Below are positions 1 through 62,321 of a stretch of 64,000 nt of DNA, piece after piece; position 1 is the first letter of the stretch; every line of letters begins with the position of its first letter. The notes beneath the pieces were generated by a model. It saw nothing but the letters and a program-made list of their open reading frames with translations. It ran no database searches and was not told where the DNA came from. The stretch comes from Mycoemilia scoparia (lineage: Eukaryota; Kickxellomycota; Kickxellomycetes; Kickxellales; Kickxellaceae): positions 1-64,000 of the forward strand of contig JANBPU010000071.1 in the NCBI GenBank assembly GCA_027575805.1, read 5' to 3'. A program made the translations under genes and the position numbers.

Positions 1-71
1 CATGCATACTGGCCAAGCCTATATTATCATTGATAATATTAATTTAGCCCTTCAAAAATAATCACCCATAT
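1..71. mobile_element. Family A MITE copy 1, cut by the window edge
   Basis: The right end carries the family A terminal repeat (cccttcaaaaataatcaccc, then atatgg). The interior matches the reverse complement of the copy at 18353-18480, including the cattgataa and actagt/catact-like stretches. The left end lies outside the window. No coding capacity is visible. Confidence 0.75.
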
Positions 72-3292: not shown

Positions 3293-4120
3293 TTAGAAGA
3301 GAGGAGCAGAGCTGGGGGCGAAACCAGATCCAGAGGAGCTGGAAACATCAGATTCGGATTCAGATCCAGATCCAAAACCATCGGCAGAGTCGCCGCTGAG
3401 AGGAGAGATGTCCTCTAGGGAGACATCACCGTTGCCAGAATCGGCGGGTTCAAGTGGGGCGGCATCGGAGATGTCACTGGGAGCGGATATGTCGGCCATG
3501 GAAGAGCCTTCTCCGGATCCGTGAGGGAATGGGAGCTTGGAAGCGAGGCCTGGGAAGAGCTTCTCGATGAGTTCCTTGATCTTATCGAGACCTGGAGCTT
3601 CACCTTCGTGGCCGAAGCCGTGGCCATGACCGTGCTTGTGTCCGTGGCCTTCGCCTTCTTCGTCAGAAGCGGAAGATGAGGAGTCGTCGGCTTCCAAGGA
3701 AGAAGCAATTTCAGGGTCCTGCTTGAGGGAAAGAAGACCGTCAGAAGAGCCATCTCCACCAGGGAAAGAGCCTTCATCAGCGCCAGATGATCCTGATCCG
3801 GCTGGAGAAAGGTCCTCCATACCACCGGCACCGCCAGCAGGAGCATCACCTCCAAATGGAGAGCCAGAGTCGCCACCGAATGGAGAACCAGAACCGCCAG
3901 CGGGAGAGTCGCCGCCAAATGGAGAGTCAGAGCCGGCTGGAGAAAGGTCCTCCATACCACCGGCACCACCAGCGGGCGAGTCACCTCCAAATGGAGAGTC
4001 AGAGCCACCAGCAGGAGAATTGCCACCGAATGGGGAGTTACCAGCGGGAGCGGCACGAGCAACCAGTGCGGCCACGGAGAGGAGAGTAGTAGTTGTACCA
4101 GCCAACGAGAAAGAAACCAT
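3293..4120 (-). CDS. Secreted low-complexity Gly/Pro/Ser/Asp-rich protein
   Basis: A single exon of 275 codons. The N-terminus has a classic signal peptide (MVSFSLAGTTTTLLSVAALV, then ARAAPA as a likely cleavage zone). The mature part contains imperfect repeats built on SPFGGDSPAGG, alternating with GGMEDLSPAGS blocks (residues about 28-115). A Ser/Glu-rich stretch follows, then a His-Gly run (GHGHKHGHGHGFGHEGE, about 158-174), a short hydrophobic/charged helix (GLDKIKELIEKLFPGLASKL) and an acidic Ser/Gly tail. Codon use is G/C-shifted and highly regular, which suggests strong expression and makes the antisense frames open too. No enzyme domain is visible. It may be a cell wall, matrix or metal-binding secreted protein, but its function is unknown. 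There is no clear GPI signal at the C-terminus. Confidence 0.8.
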   Translation of the reverse strand: MVSFSLAGTTTTLLSVAALVARAAPAGNSPFGGNSPAGGSDSPFGGDSPAGGAGGMEDLSPAGSDSPFGGDSPAGGSGSPFGGDSGSPFGGDAPAGGAGGMEDLSPAGSGSSGADEGSFPGGDGSSDGLLSLKQDPEIASSLEADDSSSSASDEEGEGHGHKHGHGHGFGHEGEAPGLDKIKELIEKLFPGLASKLPFPHGSGEGSSMADISAPSDISDAAPLEPADSGNGDVSLEDISPLSGDSADGFGSGSESESDVSSSSGSGFAPSSAPLF

Positions 4121-9879: not shown

Positions 9880-12800
9880 GCTACACGGACAGAGCTTGCG
9901 AGTATAGTAGGGGTGTTGGAGCAAGATTTTTGATAGAAGGAAAAGATAGATTTAAAGCAATCTTGATGATAATGATAATGATAATAATAATAGAGATGGC
10001 AAAAGGAACTAGAGAGAGGGAAAGCAAGAAAATAACGAGGTCAGTGTGACTAAAGAGCAAAGCAGTACAGCAGGTGGTATTTAAGGTGGGCCGGGTGCGA
10101 GGGAGCGAGAATGGAGGCTAATTACTAAAAGGGGATCAAAAACGAGGGAAAGGAGTGGGTGTGAAGTAGCTGCAAGCGCACAAACGGATTGCGAACCAAA
10201 ATAGATTCAGACAGATGGCCACTTTGGTCAATGGGTCCTTCCCTACTGGGCCGCCAATGATTAAAGCCAACTGTGGATAAACTAGGCCTGGCAAAGGATC
10301 GAGGATGTTGTTCAAGAAACTTACCAGTGATGATGATGGATCGGGCTCGGCTCCTGGTATTCTGGAGATAAATGCTGCTGCCCCCAAGGTGGCTCGCCAA
10401 CGTTTCTGAGCTCGCTCCATTACTGCCCACTTCCCCCCGGTCGCCCACCCAAGCACCGCCAGCCCTTTCTCTCTCGCACTGCTTGAGTGGGAGGAGGTCA
10501 CGATGGTTCGGTTAAACCAGGTATCAGAGCAGCCCATGCATTGTTTGGTCAACACGCCCCTCCCCCTGGCCGTCCACTGCTGCTATCCTCAATCAATGTC
10601 CAGTGTGCAATTGAGCCATGCTGTGCTTGTCCCAAACCCCACCCCTCTGCCATCTTGTGGATGATGGCCCGGCCCGTCCTTGCCCCTCCTTCCACAAAGG
10701 CCCTGTGCTTTGTGCATCTCTTGGATTAAAGACTGCACGCCCGCCCTCTGGCCCGCCATGGCGCGCTGCCCAGCCTTTCTGGATGGCCATCTTGTCTTCA
10801 AAACGCCTGGCTCAAAAGGCACATTGGGACGCACTCTAGAAGGCCTGATGGCTGTGGTACGCCCAAAACTCCAGCCTTGAGCCTTTGGCTGGTGGCATGC
10901 CTGGTGATGATAATGGTTGGTGTTGTGATGGGAGTCTGCATGGCGTCGCCAATAATGAATGCACATACGTTTTGTGACAGAGGCACCACCTCCCACCTCT
11001 CTGGGCAGTTTCAAAGCCCACATTGTATACGCACTGTTGCAGGCGTCGGGCTGTGGCATGCTTGGGAAGATTGGATATCTTGGCTGGCTCTGGGGGGTCT
11101 CCAATTTAGGCAATTCATTTGTCATTTAACGCAAGCAGAAGCTTAGCCAAAAATCCGCCGAAGCTCCGACTCCTACTATTTCCTAACCTTTTGATTAAAG
11201 CTCCCCCCTCCTTTTGTCTGCCCATTCTACGCCTCTGCCGCATTTGTCGCCATAGGGCCGCACCACAAAGCATGTTCGTTGTGCCGAAGCGTGGCTTCTT
11301 TAACAATGCGCTCTTTCAAAGGCCACGCCGCTTCATATCAACAGCCATATGGCCACACTGGCGCTGTATTTGATACGGAACCGTCTTAGCGCCAAAGACG
11401 GCCTGCTCTTTTAGTCTCAGCAAAACAAAGAGTCCGAAAATCTTTGGATTTTTCGCTTGAATGTGGAACAGTCTTTCCGAATCAACTCAATCAGTTGGCA
11501 TCTGCGCTGAACATTCTATGGCCCATGGGCCTTCTCTCAGCTGAAAGGATTCCAGGATAGCTGGATAGCCTGTCTGTGTGCACGATGTGGGCTGGCCACC
11601 CGCGTTCAAGCGAAGCTGTAGAAAGAGCCTGGATGACAATTCCACAAAGAGCCATGCGGTTCAGCACAAGGCCAGTGCCGCACTGAAAGATGCCGTATCG
11701 TGTTTCATCGCAGACTGCCGTTTCCTGGGGGGGGCAGATAAGCACAGCGCCCAACACAGGTTCATTGCCGCTTCCCCTTTATCAGTCTGCCCCTCCGATC
11801 ACATCATGTTATTTCTATCACCGCATTGCGTAATGAGGAGTGGGGTTTCAGATGGCTCTTTCTCCCGCTTTAACATGCTGGTCCTGGGCATAATCCGGGT
11901 GGTTATCTTGAAGGGTAGCCACGCAACCGTTGACTATGAAAGGGCTCCCTTCAAACAGCATGATCAATATCTTTCCCAAGCTTCTGAGAAGCCAGCTATA
12001 CTCTGATCCAAATAAAACTGGTTGCTGGCGCTGTAGCCTTCTCTATAGGCCATTCTTCAGGTCTGATCTACTGACTCTCAAATATTGCCAATCCCTCCTC
12101 CCAATCTAGGAAAACTCTAAGGAGAATATACTCCATGCGTTTCATATAAGCTTGACTGCCTATCTAGCCACTGGGCAGAGCAGTCTCCCCACAAGGGTAC
12201 TGGGATACTCCCTTAGATGCTGGCCAATCATCACTGTGGCTCCGGCTAAAACACATGGGCTATGGGCTGGCTTGCAGGGAGTGCGTGGGCGCACCTGTCT
12301 GTTCCCTTTTGGCGGAGAACTTGCGGCCTGCTTTTCTCTCAGCGTTCGGGCAGTGCCAATGCACCTTCTCCCACTAACCACCACAGCAGGCAACGGCATA
12401 TCCCCTTTCACTCATTATAATATGCATCGTGTTCACACGTACTGCTGATGGAGCAGCGGGTGTCCCAAAACACTTCTTCCTAAGACCAGTGTGGCAAATA
12501 AAGTCAAAGCCCGCCCATCAGCATCTGCAATGATGATAGGCTGATGGCAGGAGCACATGGACAGTCACATAGCACTCATACCGGCACTTTCCCAGCCTTC
12601 AGCAAGTGAAGTGTAATCGAGCTTTGGGTCCCCGCTTGCCAAAGACCAAAGCATCAAACCACCACCACTGCTACTATTGCTGAAAACCATCTCTCTATAT
12701 CGGGGGTTTATAGACGGCTCAGTGCAGAGTTTGCATCACCCCTCACCAATACCAGCCATTTCACGTGAAGGCGCTGCAACTATAGATGTGGATTCTGTAT

Positions 12801-13799: not shown

Positions 13800-16700
13800 T
13801 TACCTTCCACTGGATATTTCGGATATTTCTTGACTGTACTTCCCTGATCCCTTTGAGGCTTCAATGTGACCTTTGGCCTTGTGATGTGCATCAGAAATAG
13901 GACCGTCGAATAATTTTTTTGTTGCCGCTGTTTTCAAAATAAACAAACACAGTTCAATATATATAGCAATGATGATTGTATTTGTGGCTTTAGGATGCAT
14001 CCTTGTAATTCAGATCTTCAAAGTTACAGAAAGTGCATACTAGCAGCTATACAATCTTTTTTCTGCAAGCAGCATTTTGTGGTGATCAACTTACAAAGCA
14101 GATTTTCAATCTTTTTATCTGAGAGCAAATATACATCCTTCCCATCCGTTTGCTTATTATCAGAATCCACTGGTTCTTGCTTATTCAAGGAACGCATCAA
14201 TTTTTCATTGAATTCTTGTTTACGTATATTCACCAGTTCAAGCAACAGCGTTTGCTGTGCGTCTTTGGTTACTGTATCCCTGACTTTTGCAATCAATGTA
14301 TCGCTTGACTATTGTAATAACAGAAATAAAATGTAAATTATATAACACTGTAATATATATATGGATCATAATTTTTGAAGGGTGAATTTTGGGAACCAAT
14401 GACTATAGGGGCAATCGCAGCCAAATGGATGTCCAGTTTTACTAGTAAGCTTTCACCCTTCAAAAATTATTACCCATATGTGCGTATCAATTCTGTTGAA
14501 AGGCTCCATGGCAGTAATAATACTAATATTAATAATCCAATTAGAATCATACTCACAGAGCCTGTATATTTCATTAGCAATAAACACAATTTTCCAGTAT
14601 GGTCATCTATTCTACGATGATTGGTTAGTAGCTGGTCGTGTGCTTTGTAGTCTCCATTGCTATTTATGCGAGAGATGCAAATTTAGTTCCAATTCCAACA
14701 TATAAGCCTAATATGAATGTATATCCAACTATTCCGAGTCACTGCATAGGATACTAACTTGTTTATCTTTATGCGCCTCAATTGGCTTAGGTCTACTTTT
14801 GCCAGCATTGCGCACTCATTCTGAATCGTTGAGCATTCTTTGCGAAGCAGCTCAATCAGCTCTGGGCCATTTGCCAGCAGCCCTTTGGAGACTATTTCTT
14901 CGACCTATACCAATATACATAATGCCGATTCTATTGTTATAAATTGCCATTAATCAGTATGCTCCATTTAATATCAAATGTTGCCGCCACAATACCTTAT
15001 TTCTTTGCTGGGAAATGTTTATTCCATCTTCACGAATCTCATGAATATAGTTTATCAACTGACTCAGCTGATTTGGAACCTAATTCGCATCATTATCGTT
15101 GCATATGTTTGATGTACCATAAATCATTTGAGCTTTGTGGTGTTCTGATGGACTGCAAAAATATAGAATGTCGGTGTGTCATGCTTCTTACCGAGTCGCA
15201 GTCACCCTCGATGTTTAATAAGCTTAAGCCATTTTCAGCCGTGGATGTGTTGGCAATGTCTTGTAAAGAAGCCGCGAGCTTGTCCTTTACTCCAGGAGTC
15301 TCTGTGGCAATAATATGTTGCAATATCGTGTCCCTATAATGCAGTTACTGGTCAATATCAGCAAGCTGCCCTATCAGGCCTTAGTTGGCAAAACAAAACT
15401 GGATTTTACCTTAGGAGTTTGGGCTCGATGTCTGGCGTTTTTTCGAGGAGATTTGAAGTGATTAAATCTATGGCCGCATCGAGCTTTGTTTTGGTATTCT
15501 CTATTTGGGAATTCGTATTTTCTGAGGCACGATGGTGCTGAATGTGCGATAAGATGCATTTCTATTTGCGAATTTACGAATCGAAATAGACTGTTAATGG
15601 AGATCATCATTTCACGGAAATTGCATATCGTATTGGATTCTTTCAAATACCTGGAGGATGTCATTCAGATCGCGTATGCAGTTTTCCTGCTCGTCCCTAC
15701 ATCTGTATGAATGATTAATAGCATGTTAATACGAATCCAATATACTAACACCTTTTCGGATAGGATGCTTTCGAAAGCCTACTCTTTGCTTGTGATGTTT
15801 GGGGCTGCTTCTAGGCGGCTCTTTGCTTCATTAAGCTTTTCCGCAATATTTTCAAGAATTTTTCTTGGGTGATGGGTAATTATCTATGAGATAAGCATGA
15901 CAACGAGTCATAGTAAAGCCAATTCAATTCATCATGATATGGGGACAGGGTCATGAAATTGGGATTTTTACCTTTTCAAAGCCTTCGTCATCTGACAAGC
16001 TTTTTGGTGCTTTTCTACACGAATTGGTGATGTAATATTAACTTTTGACTATTTTTATATACAAGTTGTGTCTGGCGCGTGTCTCTTTTACACATACCTT
16101 TCTTCAATGAAACAGTTGAAAGACTTCAGATTATTTAATAGTGTCTGGAGTCTGTGAATGCCATATTCCTTGTCTTCAATATACATCTTCTTTAGCTCTA
16201 TCCTCATTCTCTGCTTTCTCTGCTTCTCTTTGAACTTAGAGATTTTACTTTCTATAAGAAAAAATAGATACATGTAAAACTTGCCAAATTTTATATGGCA
16301 TGTATGAATATACCAACAATATATAAAGCAGATGCTTACCAAGTGCCTCGATTCTATTGATACTAATTTGACATGCCTCTTTGGTTTCTTCTATTTCACC
16401 ATCGAGCCACGCTTTGGTTTCAACATTTTTCTTATGGCTCTTTACCAATTCAAGTAACTCTGAATCAATTTTATGGATGTTGTTTCCAGACAACGCATCA
16501 GCACTGAACCTATTTTGAATGCGCAAAAAAGGTGAGTATGTCTACGTACAGTCCTTTGATTATCTATTTGTAATAATTTATGCAGACAAACCTTTGGATT
16601 CTACGGCGCGCATCCTGAACGTTTCTATCAAAAAATAGTTGACTATTTAGCTCTGTAAAAAGGGACAATAGTGTGATTATATGCTAATAATAGGTACTTA

Positions 16701-18352: not shown

Positions 18353-18480
18353 TATATGGGTAGTTATTTTTGAAGGGCTAAACTATTGTTATCAATGAAA
18401 ATATATGGTAACTAGTATGCAAGTTAAAACTGGCCTACTAGTAAAACATAGTGTTCCTTCAAAAATAATTACTCATATGC
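18353..18480. mobile_element. Family A MITE copy 3
   Basis: Begins atatgggtagttatttttgaaggg and ends with ccttcaaaaataattactcatatg, an inverted pair. The interior (aactattgttatcaatgaaa, gtaactagtatg) matches copy 1, not the cores of copies 2 and 4-7, so copies 1 and 3 form a subfamily. Lies between centrin and the SET gene. Confidence 0.85.
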
Positions 18481-20779: not shown

Positions 20780-21225
20780 TCAGCATATTATTTGCCTCAA
20801 AACTATATATATGCATATATGGAAAGATTTTGCTTGGAGTCGAATCTATGGTAGACAGAAATGGGCCCTCAGATATTTTATATGCAACTACTGGGGACCC
20901 ATTTTGCCCAAAACCTTGTGAACTTTGGCCATATATACAAGCTTTAACAAAATCACAGGGTGGATTTTATCACAGTTTATTTATGAATAAAGTCATTCAT
21001 TTTATATAAGCGCTTTAATTCCATATTGTTTGAGGCATAATCAAGGTGGAGGTTTCACTTGATTAGAGCTAATTTAATTAGTATGCGTCATCAACATAGA
21101 CTTTGTTATTTTGTTGTTAGTCGACTTTAGCCATCTAGTCATCTTTACCGGAAACACCACCAAAGCGTTTTTTACTCATCACCACCAATATACACACATA
21201 TATATCTACATATACATATTAAACA
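20780..21225. other. Intergenic: family C repeat and the proteasome gene promoter
   Basis: Holds the family C copy at 20813-20938, then AT-rich promoter DNA of the proteasome alpha gene. An 80-codon frame through the repeat also exists in the other family C copy and is repeat-borne. Confidence 0.6.
20813..20938 (+). mobile_element. Family C repeat copy 1
   Basis: About 125 bp, with high identity to the reverse complement of 57158-57280. Shared blocks include gtcgaatctatggta, tcagatattttatatgca, ctggggacccattttgccca and tgtgaactttggcc. Ends catatatgg and ccatatata form short inverted repeats. Confidence 0.8.
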
Positions 21226-26209: not shown

Positions 26210-27430
26210 CCATGGAGTTGAATTCATAGTTTGTGGGCAAACGCTCTGGTGACCATCGGATGATGCAAGATTATAGCAAAGCGTAGATCCAATTTCCTGT
26301 ACTTTCTAATTTAGCAAAAATTTGTATAGTTAGAATACACCAGGTGATATCAATTGCAATATAGATGCGACTATCTCTTGCCCTGCCATTTTGTTTAATC
26401 ACAAGGGAGATTCCTTCATCCAAGCATACCAATACATGCAGCTCTCTATTTCTATCGCCATGTACCTGACATTGCTGCTACATAAGCTCCTACTAATACT
26501 GGGCTATGTTTCTAATAGAATTCTGTTGATTAAAATGGACTGTAATAGCAAAGATTTATAAATAAATAAACAACAGTCTTTAAACTTTTCTACAACACAG
26601 AAATGCATTGGAAAGATTTACTAACTTTGTTTATTTGGCAAGCAGTTCTCCACCAAAAGGGAACAGGCAGATACCCTCACACATTCCCTGCAAACCAGTC
26701 CGTAAGCTATGCATTTTATCTGGAGCCTCAGCGATGATTGGCTAGTTTTCAAGGAAACATCCTAGTACCCTTTTAGAGGAGAATCAGTCATATACATACA
26801 AAAACACTAAAATATTGCATGCATCGCATTGCTTTACCATGACAAACAAGCATTGTAGTAGTAAAAGGGCATCGGCCAAAATAAAGGTCGCTGTGTATTG
26901 CACAGACCAAATACAACGCCAATAGCAGATGCCTGGTTAAATGGTCTCGAACCTAAGCAGAGGACACACATGCCTTCGAATGTTCTTTCTAATAGACCAC
27001 GCGAAACTTGGCTCCTCATAGCCACAAATACTGGTTGCGCATGGCATCAGACCATTTTTAACCTTGGTTGATCACTGAGATTGCCAGAAAAAGTTGTGTA
27101 GCATATCCCAAGCTTCGATTAGTGTGGGAGAGTGGGAGAGAGGAGAGGTTGTGGAGGGGCCCATAGATAAAGATCAAATCAAAGATGTAAATCCAAGCGC
27201 CATGGCTTCTTTAATCCTATTGGGCTATGCAATTGTTCTCATCTTGAACCTTGAATGTCCTTAGCAGCGCCCTTGAGAGACTTTCTCGTCTGTCGTGCGT
27301 GCCAAAAAGGGTTGTTTGCTGGTTCGTTTGGAGTCACAAACCTGTTGCTCTTTAAGCTTTTACTTTTTGTGCTGTTGTGAACAGTGTGTATATATACCCG
27401 CATATTGCTATTCTACGCTGTCCCTCAACC
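26210..27430. other. Intergenic with a family B repeat
   Basis: 1.2 kb between the Faf1-like stop and the KH gene start. Contains the family B copy (26646-26783). Nothing else coding is supported. A purine-rich gtgggagagtgggagagagg tract lies at about 27123. Confidence 0.55.
26646..26783 (+). mobile_element. Family B MITE-like repeat copy 2
   Basis: Ends ttctccaccaaaaggg and cccttttagaggagaa are near-perfect inverted repeats. Interior words aacaggcagata, cattccctgcaaa, ctcagcgatgattggc and agtaccc match the other three copies. This is the clearest copy for defining termini, at 138 bp. Confidence 0.85.
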
Positions 27431-35703: not shown

Positions 35704-36273
35704 GTTGTATAATAAAGTGAATATATATGTGCGCGTGTTTGCAAGGCTGAAAGTAACAAATGGAAAGCAAAGACAAGGATGAACCAGAAGGGGTCTCACA
35801 TTTGATAGAAAACAGTTGTGCTATAAGCTTGTTAGAAAGACAATTGAGCAGCAGCTACTACCAATCTGATTATAGGGCCCGCTCAGGCAGCTGATCCGGC
35901 TTCCGCAAGCAAGAACACCAGTCTCAGTGACCAGGTTAAGTCGAGTATTATCTATACATACGCCACTGATGTCTCATCACTAGCAGCAATCAACATGGCA
36001 ACCGCAGAGCCCTGATTTACAGAGAGCTTGAAGCAAGCGTGGTAAATATCAATCAAATACACGTAAAGTCTCCTTTATAACATCAACACACATATGGGAA
36101 GTTATTTTTGAAGGGCGGAAGTTTACTAGTAAAACTGGATATCCATTTGGCTGCGATTGCCCCTATAATCATTCACCCTTCGAAGATTATTACCCATGTT
36201 GCTAATTTCTCTATTTGAATTAATGTAAAGATACATGAAGTACGTTTATTGCAAATGAAATTAAAGTAAAGCT
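35704..36273. other. Intergenic with a family A copy
   Basis: 5' side of cytidine deaminase and 3' side of NDUFA1. Contains the family A element at 36091-36199 and no other supported feature. Confidence 0.6.
36091..36199 (-). mobile_element. Family A MITE copy 4
   Basis: Reads catatgggaagttatttttgaaggg at the left and cccttcgaagattattacccatg at the right. The core is the reverse complement of copy 2 (gctgcgattgcccctata, tttactagtaaaactgg), 109 bp in all. Confidence 0.88.
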
Positions 36274-40575: not shown

Positions 40576-41233
40576 CAGCCATAGACTTATATTATACTAT
40601 ACTGTACCAGGAAATATTATACAGTTTATATTTGAGCTTTTATAAATTTGCCTATTTACCTAATTAAAGTTTATTAATGACCCTAACTTGGCAATTTACC
40701 ATACATCGAAACATAGCATGCAAGCAGATTAACTTTTTAGTAGTGGTATATAAGTAGCTCTTAGCATTGCATGTGAGATATAATAATAATGGACGAAATA
40801 TGGATCATAATTTATGAAGGGTGACTTTTCGTGGCCAAAGATTATAGGGACAATCACAGCCAAATGTGTGACTCTATAGCCCTTCGAAAATAACTACACA
40901 TATGTCTCTGGAGTTATGATTGCCACAACTAAAATGCAATAGACAAGATTCAGATACTTGGTCATTAGATAGATGCATCCCTAGCAAATAAACCGTAAAG
41001 ATCCTTTGATGCAAATATCCTCGCTTTCTAATAAAAAGCACTTGAAATATCTACAACACCTCAGGGAATTGGCTTTATACATGGTTCTATTATTCTACAT
41101 ATGGAGAGCAATGTTGAAACCAAAGTAGTGTGCAAACATATTTTTCTGTCGTTCTTTGAATCTGTGCAAAACAGAGTTAATTTTATTTTATAGAAACCCA
41201 ATACATGTATTAAAGGTTGAAAATTCCAGCAGA
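40576..41233. other. Intergenic with a family A copy
   Basis: Between the convergent ERG11 and uL23 stops, containing the family A element at 40798-40904. Otherwise AT-rich, nothing else recognised. Confidence 0.6.
40798..40904 (+). mobile_element. Family A MITE copy 5
   Basis: Ends ggatcataatttatgaaggg and cccttcgaaaataactacac. Core gattatagggacaatcacag then ccaaatg. The end after the core reads gtgactctatagcccttc, the same variant as copy 6. Confidence 0.88.
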
Positions 41234-45446: not shown

Positions 45447-45586
45447 GCTTTCCAGCAAAGGGAACAGACAGACAGCCTCAAGCATTCCCTGCAAATCAAC
45501 ACATAGCCCGTATATTTTGGCTGGAGTCTCAGCGATAATTGCTAGCATCCAAGGGAATGTGCCAGTACTGCCCTTTTGGAGGAGAC
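45447..45586 (+). mobile_element. Family B MITE-like repeat copy 3
   Basis: Starts ttccagcaaagggaacagac, ends tgcccttttggaggaga. Shared interior: cattccctgcaaatc, acatagcccgtatattttgg, gagtctcagcgataattg. The left end has lost part of the inverted repeat. Confidence 0.8.
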
Positions 45587-56825: not shown

Positions 56826-56916
56826 TTTGGATCATAATTTTTGAAGTGAGAATGGTTATAGGGGCAAACACAGCCAAATGAGTGACTCTATAGCCCTTCA
56901 AAAATAACTACACATA
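56826..56916 (+). mobile_element. Family A MITE copy 6
   Basis: Left end ggatcataatttttgaag, right end gcccttcaaaaataactaca. Core ggttataggggcaaacacag then ccaaatg. About 91 bp, the shortest complete copy. Confidence 0.85.
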
Positions 56917-56995: not shown

Positions 56996-57150
56996 GCTCT
57001 CCCTCAAAAAGGAGCAGGCAGATAGCTTATCATACACTGCTTGTAAAATCAGCCCATAAACCTGGCTATACATTTTAGCTTGCGGAATCTCGCAGTGATG
57101 ATTGGCCAGTACCCAGAGGAATCTCAACCTAGCGTCCTTTTAGAGGGGAA
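56996..57150 (+). mobile_element. Family B MITE-like repeat copy 4
   Basis: Left gctctccctcaaaaaggagc, right gtccttttagaggggaag, with interior aggcagata, cactgcttgtaaa, gatgattggccagtaccc. About 155 bp, more diverged and with a small insertion. Confidence 0.75.
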
Positions 57151-57157
57151 GTTTCTG

Positions 57158-57280
57158 CCATACGGCCAAAGTTCACAATGCTTTGGGCAAAATGGGTCCC
57201 CAGGAGCTGCATATAAAATATCTGAGGTCCCATTTCTGCCTACCATAGATTCGATCCCTAGTGATATCTTCCCATATACA
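57158..57280 (-). mobile_element. Family C repeat copy 2
   Basis: Reverse-orientation partner of 20813-20938. Ends ccatacgg and cccatatac. Begins only 7 bp after the family B copy. Confidence 0.8.
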
Positions 57281-57622: not shown

Positions 57623-57745
57623 TGTGGATCATAATTTTCGAAGGGTGACTTTAGGTGGCCAATGGTTATAGGGGCAGCCACAGCCAAGTGGATTGTTCAG
57701 TTTCACTAGTATACTTTCCCCCTTCAAAGATTATTATCCACATTT
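57623..57745 (+). mobile_element. Family A MITE copy 7
   Basis: Left ggatcataattttcgaaggg, right cccttcaaagattattatcc. Core ggttataggggcagccacag, ttcactagtatac. Intact inverted ends. Confidence 0.88.
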
Positions 57746-58069: not shown

Positions 58070-61000
58070 ATGGAGTGGAATATTCAGTGGATAAAATACC
58101 TTTTAGGTCAAAGTTATATTGAAGAGGATGTATGTATCATTAGTATATAAGTTGTGACTCTATCTCTATCTTAACATATTGGCAACTTCTTTTTTAACTG
58201 GTGCAATCTGAATAGTTTAAACTTGACAATAGCAATTTTGGTGAAAATGCAGAAAAGAAAGCCAATGCACAACGACTGTTGTCGCGCTTCCTTTCTCCTT
58301 CAAACTTTAGAGCTGTTATAAATGCCACAAGTGTGAACATAGTGAAGCCTGGAGCACCAGCAACGGGTGCTGGACAAACAGGTGCCACAACGACGACAGC
58401 ACCATCAACGCCTATAATGCATCCCTCTGATACATACGCTTTCAAAAACAAAATTGAAAACAAATCTCCCGAATATTTAGGGCAGCATTCGTATTTTAAA
58501 AGAGACCCTGACACTGGCCTTCCAACGGCTGGTTTGGCCGAAGAAGTCTCAAAGATCCATCTAGATGGGCTGACAAAAAAGCAAAATGATATCTTAACAT
58601 TGGCCTGTAAGCTCGCGTTTACTGTTGTATTCAGCCTCCAAGAGTTAGAAGTTTGTATACACTCCGGCCTCCGCTTCTTATTCTTTCTACGTCTTGTTGA
58701 GATGGCCAAAGGCATGGATGAAAAGGCAAAAACCTATGCAGTGATATCGTACCACAGATGGCTTATACGCTCGGCATATCGCGACGAACAGACTGGCAGA
58801 GTACTAAGAGTTGATGGGGAAAACGAGCTGCTGCCAAACTTGAAGGCTCTTATTGGCTTCTTGGGCACTGCTAGTTCAACTGTTGTGGATCCTCGCGTTA
58901 TTTACGGCATTCACCATGATCTGGGCTGGTTCTACTTTGGAAAGTTCAACTGGAGCGAAGCATATAACCATTTACTTCAATACAAAGCCCTGTCCAAGGG
59001 AATTCCTGATGAAAACCTAGCCAGGTTGCCATCCCGCTTTGGTACTGCTGATGATTTGATTGCAGTGTGTATGGAAATGAATAAAAGTCAAACCCCCATG
59101 GATGATGATAAACCAGGACAAATAATGATAAAGTACAGTGAAAAGCCAGAAAAATTATTCTCGCCTGAGAAACTTTTAACATCCATCATTTCCCGGAATC
59201 CTAACCCTGACTGCATGGTGGTTGATCCCAACAGACAATTACAGTTAAAGAACAGGGTGGAGATCAACACCCTGATTATGAAAAAGCAGTTATTTAAAGC
59301 CACGAAACTGACCATTATTAATTCGCTTGAAAGTTGCTTCAAAGAAGGCCGTTTAAATGGATTTTGGTGCCATGAGGTTGACCAGTCATGCATCAGCTAT
59401 GTGCATAGAAAGAAAGTATCCAACCCTGCCTCTCATGCAAGTGATAGCGAAATAGATCAACTCTTGGAGACAGTCGATATTTGGATCACAAATACTATCG
59501 AAAAAGCAGGTCGATATCAGGAGGATAAAGTCAGGATGTGTGCTGATACAGTAACAACATATATTTTCGGATATCTGTTCAGTGAGATTTTCACATCAAG
59601 GAGACCAGATCATTACAAAAAGGTAAAAGATTGTATAGTCAAGTGTGTTAAAAGAGATCATTCGCTTTCTCCAGGAAAAGCGATCGGACAATTAAATGAC
59701 GATTACGGTGCGCTATTACAAGACTATCTCCGGGGAATAAAATATTTGGAGCTTGAAGATTACATAAAGGCATTGGAATGCTTTGAATTTAATAAGGGGC
59801 ATTACGATATAGTAAAGTATCAGAATCCAGATACAGAGGCAACCTATCAAAGTCTGACTACCCAGATGAGAGTATACGGGCTGTTGACAAAGGTGCTCAT
59901 TGTGGGTGGTAATTCAAATGCTGCAAAGGTTTTTATTGACGAAATGAAAACAATCGATTCTGCAGTGAAAAATATAGAATACCTTCATATGGTAAGCATG
60001 TTGCACTGAGTTGATATTGTATTCAGCTATTATATTTATATTGATAATTCTTCATCTTATCGTTCTACAGGTGCGATTTGCTGCAGAGTGTTTTAAAGGG
60101 AAGCTTCTGATGAACCACACCAATACAGCGTCAATTATAATGTCTCTTCAAGAAAAAGAAGATGGAAATACAAATACGACGCAGGATAAAAGCAAATACA
60201 GCAAGTTGCAGGACTGGGGTAATTTGAGTTATTTCATTTATGTATATGGGTGATAATATTTGAAGGGTGGCGAGCATTTGCTAATAAATGATGGTCGCTC
60301 ATATTTGACTTTAATCGCCCTTATAATTAATCATTGGCTACCAAAAGGCGCCCTTCAAATGGCATCACCCATATACTTGTGGTGAATGTCAGTAGTATTG
60401 TAAACATTGTTTAGAGCAATGTCTAACTGTCTGTTATTTTTGTATTTTTAGAAATATATAAACTCTGCGTGTCCCTCTCAACAAACATAACTTTAATCTC
60501 GAAAGAATCAGAATCGTTGGGAATCATATACAACCATGAAGCCAAAAGTATGTGAAATAGTTTAGTATCCAAATTATATTAATAGTATATGTCACCGCCC
60601 CCATATTCCTAACATCTAATTTATTTGTCTTAGGATTTGTCATGTCAAATTCGCATTCCAACTATAGACCTAAAATACAAGCTATACCCAACATTCGAAG
60701 CTGTGTGATCAAAATTATAAGAGCCCTGATTATGGCGCAGAAAGACATGGATACTGCAACTCATTATCTCCGAAAATACTTTGGCTGGTGCGACGACGTT
60801 ATTCTGTCAAAGTTGTTTATAAATATTTTGTGCGGAATTATGTGGAACATAGTATCAAGCAATGGGCCCTATGACGCATTTGGGTGTATCGCATATCTTC
60901 CAGCTACCCATACTTTGGCACCAAAAATCAGCAACGAAGACCTGCATCCCAAACTCATTGAAAACATGAAGAGCCAACCATATGAAGAAGTCCCACCGAA

Positions 61001-61604
61001 ATTCAATTTAAAATCTGTACGTGATATAGCACTATCGTTATGTCTCGAGCTATATGAACGTCACCCAGGAGACGAGAGCTTATATCTTTGTCTATTTGAC
61101 ATTTACACTATCAAAGGATCAGACCTCAAAATCCCCAGCCCATTTGCCGGAAAGAAAGATAACGAAGCGGCAGTCAGCATGTTCCTCTGCTATATGGCTA
61201 AAGTCACCAATAATTTTGAATATGGTGCGATCGATGCGGCATTAAAGAAGGGGTGGTATCGCAAAAGGATCACTGTATTGATAGAAACCTTGAAAAGGCT
61301 CAACAATTTTGTTGCTGTTGCCGTTCTTTACCAGATAGAGCTGCCCATTAATTATCAGGAGGCATTCTCTGCTATAAGAAGTGCAGCTCCTATGAAGCAA
61401 ATAACAAAGGAGACAAGCCCATTCTTTTGGGAATCAAGTATAGTAGAATATGCTCAATACCAGTGCTTCCACACACCAGGGTGCAAGGACATTGTCCTGA
61501 AGGCAGAAAAAAGAATCGAGACCCCTCAAGGTGGTCGACAAAAAATGCTCGAAAAAACAATGCCAAATGTTTCTAAATTTTTCAAATGGCTCATATTGCA
61601 GTAA
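58070..61604 (+). CDS. INTS8: Integrator complex subunit 8 (INTS8)
   Basis: INTS8 recruits PP2A to Integrator, which cleaves nascent RNA and attenuates RNA polymerase II. Five exons (58070-58129, 58216-59991, 60071-60218, 60452-60547, 60634-61604) sum to 1017 codons, so 1016 residues, close to the metazoan length. Family-like features: N-terminal WNIQWIKYLLGQSYIEEDF (compare the W-F-E-x-L-L start), YAVISYHRWLIRSAYR, YGIHHDLGWFYFGKFNWSEA (TPR-like), RFGTADDLIAVC, and a C-terminal solenoid with KRITVLIETLKRLNNFVAVA, VLYQIELPINYQEAFSAIRS, FFWESSIVEYAQYQCF and QKMLEKTMPNVSKFFKWL. The last four align in order with the animal C-terminus. A Pro/Thr/Gly-rich loop (about 58340-58425) is a local insertion. 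Intron 3 holds a family A repeat. Confidence 0.8.
60244..60376 (-). mobile_element. Family A MITE copy 8 (inside an INTS8 intron)
   Basis: Near-perfect inverted ends tatatgggtgataatatttg and caaatggcatcacccatata. Core aatcgcccttataattaatc, with ggctacc, matches the family core in reverse. About 133 bp and the largest copy. It fills most of the 233-bp intron. Confidence 0.85.
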
Positions 61605-62321
61605 TGTAAAGTGGATTGAAGTGTCTATTATATTTAATCCCTTAGCAATGTAACCCTATTTTGCTTTTTAACTCTCTAGCTTTTAAATATTGGTACCGAT
61701 ATTAGTAGTAACTGTTTCCTCATTATATTCTTATTTTCAATTGTTATTTCAATATATCTGTGCATACATGTTATTATACATTAATTTGACACAAATGGTT
61801 TTTTTGTAAATAATAAAGCCCATTTAAAGTTATAAAAGCCAAAAGCATCTGAATATGTGTAGTTATTTTTAAAGGGTTAGTTACACATTTGGCTGTGACT
61901 GCCTTTATAATCATTGACCACCAAAAAGCACTCTTCAAAAATTACCATCCATATTTGAGAATCAATTAACAAATAGAAATCTATATACGCTGTCTTGCTA
62001 AAACAGATCGGTAGTACTGTTGTGTGTAACAGCAGGTTCAATATTCAGCAGAACTGATCATAGCCATAGAGATCTGACAATTAAATTGACTTTACAGTGT
62101 TAGATTTACATTTCCAAAACAAGTATCATAGGTTTGACCATTGACTAAAGCAATTTTTTTAAGTAGTGGCGTGAAAACAGCTACACAAAACGGAAAGCAA
62201 GTAGGGGGGAGGGGCATAACATGCGGTAAATCATCATAACAGGGAAAGCAAGAGGGAATGGAAAATAACAGCCATATAGTAGCCACAGCGCACCTCCAAT
62301 GGGCTAGGCAAAACAATGTAT
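61605..62321. other. Intergenic with a family A copy
   Basis: Convergent 3' ends of INTS8 and the second GH16 gene flank it. AT-rich, holding copy 9 of family A and nothing else. Confidence 0.6.
61853..61956 (-). mobile_element. Family A MITE copy 9
   Basis: Left atatgtgtagttatttttaaaggg, right ctcttcaaaaattaccatcc. Core acatttggctgtgactgcct then ttataatcattgacc, the reverse of copies 5-7. More diverged. Confidence 0.82.

Follow-up and report, generated by a model that had tools for sequence, protein, structure and literature searches.

A dense family of miniature inverted-repeat elements in the fungus Mycoemilia scoparia and a candidate autonomous partner that shares their ends

Mimps, which are gene-associated, short miniature inverted-repeat transposable elements (MITEs) of fungi, use TA targets and have an impala-type partner. 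In Fusarium oxysporum Fol4287, 103 mimps (54 + 45 + 4) were found, mostly on accessory chromosomes, and their density on one chromosome is about 21 per Mb at most (PMC3599309). Nosema microsporidia contain MITEs of several kinds, and Nbh4, the most abundant one in N. bombycis, reaches 122 copies (PMC4405373). The silkworm element BmMITE-10, which is 258 bp long and has ends CGTCGCTGTC..., was classed as novel and shows an ATAT target duplication (PMC2997013). Sola2 elements of Dictyostelium fasciculatum and Polysphondylium pallidum have 4-bp AWWT duplications, with ATAT, AAAT, and ATTT named, and inverted ends of 12-13 and 21 bp; the families carry Fanzor1 proteins, and DFa-2 encodes an 888-aa transposase (PMC3627910). 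These four accounts are used here in extract, and all comparisons refer to the parts concerned. We describe a MITE family in Mycoemilia scoparia (Kickxellomycotina, Kickxellaceae; assembly of 21.16 Mb in 466 contigs), based on a stretch of 64,000 nucleotides (C436:1-64000, hereafter the window). These MITEs have very probably been mobilized in trans by a transposase that a full-length element sharing their ends encodes; the copy at C351:6432-8620 (the C351 element) represents it.

By its target and ends, this system has its nearest kind, among those compared here, in Sola2. Both have a 4-bp AT-rich duplication, here with ATAT dominant and AAAT, ATCT, and TTTT in addition, and short inverted ends, here about 20 bp in the MITEs and paired at 23 of 24 positions in the C351 element. 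Unlike what is described for Sola2, the 2.2-kb element has a frame of only 532 codons and the genome contains no match to PF07282 (Fanzor-like), for which 6 of 14 control genomes matched. The likeness concerns target and ends, and we set the C351 element beside Sola2 without filing it there. BmMITE-10 is likewise a MITE with an ATAT duplication, but it is longer and the extract names no partner. The family resembles the mimps as short, gene-associated fungal MITEs and the Nosema elements in that several MITE kinds share a small genome, but its about 2,300 copies go far beyond the 103 and 122 given for them. Among the titles listed by our literature searches, there was neither a description of this family nor one of a MITE from this fungal group; one listed paper, on ESS2, mentions Mycoemilia scoparia. 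We regard the pair as a new member of a familiar arrangement, which works like a standard MITE and its full-length element but with an uncatalogued transposase-like protein. An isolated repeat is thereby turned into a testable two-part system, consisting of a numerous non-autonomous family and an apparently intact candidate driver in one 21-Mb genome.

Ends, target duplication, and dispersal of the MITEs

A sequence-only reading of the window had listed nine segments with shared inverted ends, found in both orientations, and had taken them for non-autonomous DNA transposons at a density high for a fungus. All nine segments carry these ends, and both orientations were seen (Table 1). Eight copies are complete, while the contig end truncates the remaining one; a tenth, decayed copy had been missed. 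The boundaries of the element are GG...CC, its length is about 80-160 bp, and the inverted ends measure 20-24 bp. We searched the genome for the end pattern ATATGGRTMATWATTTTTGAAGGG with up to three mismatches and obtained 2,364 + 2,387 = 4,751 dispersed matches, compared to 0 for the reversed pattern used as control. An unselected sample of 264 kb, made up of the window and C1:1-200000 and chosen without regard to the MITE, contained 66 ends with up to five mismatches, which gave 29 paired elements. Including the flanking 4-mers, 28 of these are 91-160 bp long and one has 254 bp. The figure of about 2,300 copies results from scaling up this sample to the genome. The density, as estimated from end matches and sample pairs, is ~110 per Mb, and the family would account for an estimated share of little above 1% of the genome, taking ~0.1 kb per copy. 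It is indeed dense when held against our one fungal comparison, the maximum of about 21 mimps per Mb on a single chromosome.

The outer catatg and atatgg words had been described as part of the shared structure. They are present, but their "atat" is mainly the duplicated 4-bp target (ATAT preferred) and not element sequence, because unusual 4-mers are doubled, the flanking bases depart from ATAT on both positions concerned, and empty sites carry a single target. In some copies with unusual flanks, ATCT (twice) and AAAT occur identically on both sides. Of 40 fetched copies, four were without a recognizable right end; the flank pairs of the other 36 were identical and unusual in six cases (TTTT, GTAT, CTAT, TTAT, ATAG, and ATAC) and differed in 30. 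Next to perfect ends, 39 cases have a first target base other than A, and where A does come first, the fourth base is not T in 33; such similar numbers are expected for a palindromic 4-bp target. The flanking 4-mers are identical in 16 of 27 unselected copies (15 of them ATAT), and we attribute the non-identical flanks of the rest to decay. Directly outside the target, G is rare (2/54).

For four insertions, paralogous empty sites were found. One MITE lies within one inverted-repeat arm of a Tc1-like element (L039) and has ATCT on both sides, while the other arm of the same element has a single ATCT; in L035, L036, and L038, the arms have a single ATCC. Two copies (C1:11842 and C1:97092) lie in members of another repeat family, and their empty sites align at 13 and six other places of the sequence examined, respectively, with 70-83% identity and mostly without a gap at the site. 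The empty site of copy 3 was found at one place (C1:38026-38081; 82% over 56 columns).

The sequence-only reading had also proposed at least two subfamilies, with copies 1 and 3 differing from the others in their core. These two are indeed core-less, and there are more than two subfamilies, which have a common left half followed by differing right halves. The core is present in 48 and absent in 10 of 58 compared copies, a partly selected set in which 27 were picked because they matched a window copy best or had unusual flanks. A subfamily consensus is 96-99% identical to the best 40 of 1,767 candidates, compared to 95.6% for copy 2 and only 87.6% for copy 7. Therefore, the spread of the family took some time, and at least one subfamily is fairly young. 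The copies avoid long reading frames: none of 30 copies from the window and C1 lies mainly within a stop-to-stop frame of at least 150 codons, while 13.5 would be expected under random placement. This agrees with the earlier statement that they are non-protein-coding.

The full-length element and its transposase-like protein

The sequence-only reading had assumed an unseen autonomous partner and had suggested looking for a transposase gene flanked by the same ends. Since the right halves of the MITEs follow a known left half, we searched for right ends not preceded by it. This pattern gave 24 matches, of which 12 were read. Two of these belong to the full-length element (C351 and a second copy on C117). 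In eight cases a left end lies within ~140 bp, for C456 the distance is 368 bp, and one match (C97) runs off its contig. Five candidates for lone left ends, obtained with a pattern excluding the known right halves, all turned out to be ordinary MITEs with both ends. Over 43 nt, and thus well past the inverted repeat, one end of the C351 element is 97.7% identical to the MITE consensus, and its other end resembles the MITE left end. Between them, the element contains a single intact stop-to-stop frame, the first ATG being codon 4. By sequence, a candidate autonomous element with the same ends is thus present for subfamily 1.

Sequence beyond the terminal inverted repeat (TIR) is shared by part of the copies. 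When the 58 copies were compared with the two subterminal stretches of the C351 element, 24 exceeded the 99% shuffle level for the first one, seven for the second one, and four showed one at each end. The first stretch is matched by 10 of the 29 copies from the window and C1. In the window, copies 2, 4, and 7 score 23, 20, and 18; for copy 7, one end of which resembles the element beyond the TIR, the 99% shuffle level is 10. The C117 copy is 92-96% identical to C351, but three inserts interrupt it (about 540, 300, and 125 nt, the smallest in L100) and it carries a stop; we did not find its far end in the sequence examined. The first insert forms an imperfect foldback (69% over 312 columns). 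Between C351 and C117, dN is 0.037 and dS is 0.121 over 492 codons, and the resulting dN/dS of about 0.31 points to selection having acted on the protein in the past, as far as one pair can tell. Overall, the C351 element is a strong candidate for the autonomous partner of the MITEs, which it would have mobilized.

The MITE core itself might come from the transposase frame. A 28-nt core stretch matches the frame around codons 117-126 with a score of 38, which none of 1,000 dinucleotide shuffles reached (highest, 37). Among 62 slices of the genome, filtered for MITE cores, however, two scored higher (50 and 53; perhaps missed MITEs) and three came near (32.5-36). Because genomic slices score as high and the orientation of the piece is opposite to that of the ends, such an origin is no more than suggestive. 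We also compared the core with the stretch adjoining the element's own end, but this match failed, since 384 of 5,000 shuffles reached the score.

The protein encoded by the C351 element shows DDE-like motifs (MDFKEN, WSDCGPHFRSAE, and NYFAEYHGKS..D..FG), and an RNase H-like fold is weakly modelled for it. We did not obtain a convincing Pfam match (best E 0.2 for the protein and 0.05 among six aligned members) or any match in NCBIfam, and annotation relying on these libraries would therefore miss the protein. Its profile gave nothing better than E 0.92 against solved structures. The 185 pattern matches in viral contigs did not include a relative, and bacterial and archaeal genomes yielded one related fragment of 34% identity (JAIMAD010000461.1, labelled as a Bacillus metagenome-assembled genome), which we suspect to be eukaryotic contamination. 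The protein could stand for a new or at least uncatalogued superfamily of eukaryotic DDE transposases with unannotated relatives and 4-bp ATAT targets, and could have driven the MITEs to a density several times that of the compared fungal cases, but we consider this improbable.

Weighing the alternatives

Stowaway-like MITEs of the Tc1/mariner kind would duplicate TA only, with A and T as preferred neighbours, and would be moved by the Tc1-like elements of the genome. ATAT does contain TA, and the genome does have Tc1-like DDE_3 transposases (15 matches, of which 13 exceed the cut-off). But a 2-bp duplication would not copy the outer bases, and these are variable and copied: non-A first bases are repeated on the other side in five of 20 fetched cases, in one of which (L056) the boundary is shifted by one base. 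If a chance of 5% per copy is assumed, this has P 0.003. Non-T fourth bases are repeated in three of 16 cases, one of them (L064) with a boundary that looks shifted. Moreover, the inverted repeats of the inspected Tc1-like loci, such as TACAGTGAGGGAC and TACAGTAGGTG, differ from the MITE ends. Twelve of the 15 DDE_3 loci and one DDE_1 locus were read without finding common ends, the MITE ends near three DDE_3 loci (L039, L040, and L041) being MITE copies. Since the full-length element with MITE ends also encodes a protein other than a Tc1-like transposase, we regard a Tc1/mariner origin as very improbable. PIF/Harbinger (Tourist-like) elements have a 3-bp target duplication instead of the 4 bp found here, and TTAA, the target of the piggyBac and Kolobok superfamilies, is not among the listed flanking 4-mers. 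The genome contains no match to PF13359 (DDE_Tnp_4), with one of 14 control genomes matching, and none to PF25273 (DUF7869), a negative without weight since the control genomes gave no match either. A conserved regulatory or structural element instead of a transposon could explain the common core, the copy inside a gene, and the absence from long open frames. This is hardly credible in view of the four paralogous empty sites with a single target copy and of the long element that carries a transposase-like gene between the same ends. Two MITE copies that lie head to tail with one common ATAT (C1:109573-109811), as if the second had hit the target copy of the first, likewise speak against it.

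A more serious objection concerns the driver. The C351 element could be a passenger or one of several, with a related, more numerous or lost family behind the spread and different drivers for the subfamilies. Only 24 of the 58 copies share sequence with C351 beyond the TIR, and two designed patterns yielded just two full-length copies, with half of the right-end matches read. On the other hand, the frame of C351 is intact, its ends are near-perfect and flanked by ATAT on either side, and the coding changes relative to C117 look constrained. Taken together, we consider this alternative rather unlikely, though well worth keeping in mind. The ends, the 4-bp duplication, filled and empty sites, thousands of ends genome-wide, frame avoidance, and a full-length element whose ends match and whose frame is intact were observed directly, and the earlier classification as non-autonomous DNA transposons is supported. 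For mobilization in trans by the C351 transposase, the protein would be expressed and act on the MITE ends, with cut-and-paste chemistry presumably involving the conserved acids D270, D352, and E385 or D393 (counted from the stop-to-stop frame). The sites into which the MITEs insert are ATAT-like, with 4 bp doubled, and their subfamilies may be internal-deletion derivatives of the C351 element or its relatives. That this element or close relatives caused the high copy number is best-supported for subfamily 1 and an extrapolation for the other subfamilies.

Features of the window and other repeats

Copy 8 sits in a 233-nt intron (60219-60451; splice sites read by eye) between coding exons, one of the later introns of an INTS8-like gene. 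The label of this gene rests on a weak Pfam match (TPR_INTS8) below the cut-off. An unnamed protein of Spiromyces aspiralis (P0024, 938 aa) aligns on both sides of the MITE and indicates that the gene runs to ~61604, while the public model H4219_003204 ends at ~60009. The intronic copy thus coincides with a short public model, and such repeats can occupy genes that annotation truncates.

Table 1. MITE copies of the window, the full-length elements, and further features. Flanking 4-mers are given as left / right; positions without contig name refer to the window.
Feature	Position	Strand	Remarks
Copy 1	1-67		Cut by start of contig C436; core-less type, oriented opposite to copy 3; ATAT target at 68-71
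Decayed tenth copy	11897-11966		ATCC / ATAT; ends with 5 and 3 mismatches
Copy 2	14363-14475	+	Subfamily 1; target duplication ATAT (14359-14362, 14476-14479)
Copy 3	18358-18474		Core-less type; ATAT / ATAT
Copy 4	36096-36195	-	Subfamily 1; ATAT / ATGT
Copy 5	40802-40899	+	Short right half; ATAT / ATAT
Copy 6	56829-56913	+	Short right half; ATTT / ATAT
Copy 7 (segment shown)	57626-57739	+	Subfamily 1; ATGT / ACAT, without intact duplication
Copy 8	60248-60370	-	ATAT / ATAT; within intron of INTS8-like gene
Copy 9	61857-61950	-	ATAT / ATAT
Host gene of copy 8, INTS8-like	58070-61604	+	Aligned with S. aspiralis P0024 on either side of the MITE
Full-length element	C351:6432-8620		2,189 bp; ATAT on both sides; inverted ends paired 23/24
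Second full-length copy (L087)	C117:380-2400		Interrupted; carries stop
Second repeat family	12174-12306, 26659-26793, 45460-45586, 57030-57162
Second repeat family, inverted pair	20816-20934 / 57160-57278

Repeats of a second abundant family are about 130-180 nt long, contain ...CTCCTCTAAAAGGG...GACTCCAGCTAAAATG..., and host nested MITE copies. They are ~70-83% alike when aligned and are also frequent in C1. Long inverted repeats surround the transposase in eight Tc1-like loci (L031, L032, L034-L038, and L041), with identical stretches of 55-228 bases, the longest in L036. At a contig edge, L029 (C287:1-1839) contains a frame of 460 codons that weakly matches DDE_1 and, below the threshold, a Tc5 helix-turn-helix domain, near a CAGTGGGTCTCAAAACTG stretch. 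In the window, positions 3795-4045 are minisatellite-like, with five 48-nt copies spaced 24-72 and open frames on both strands.
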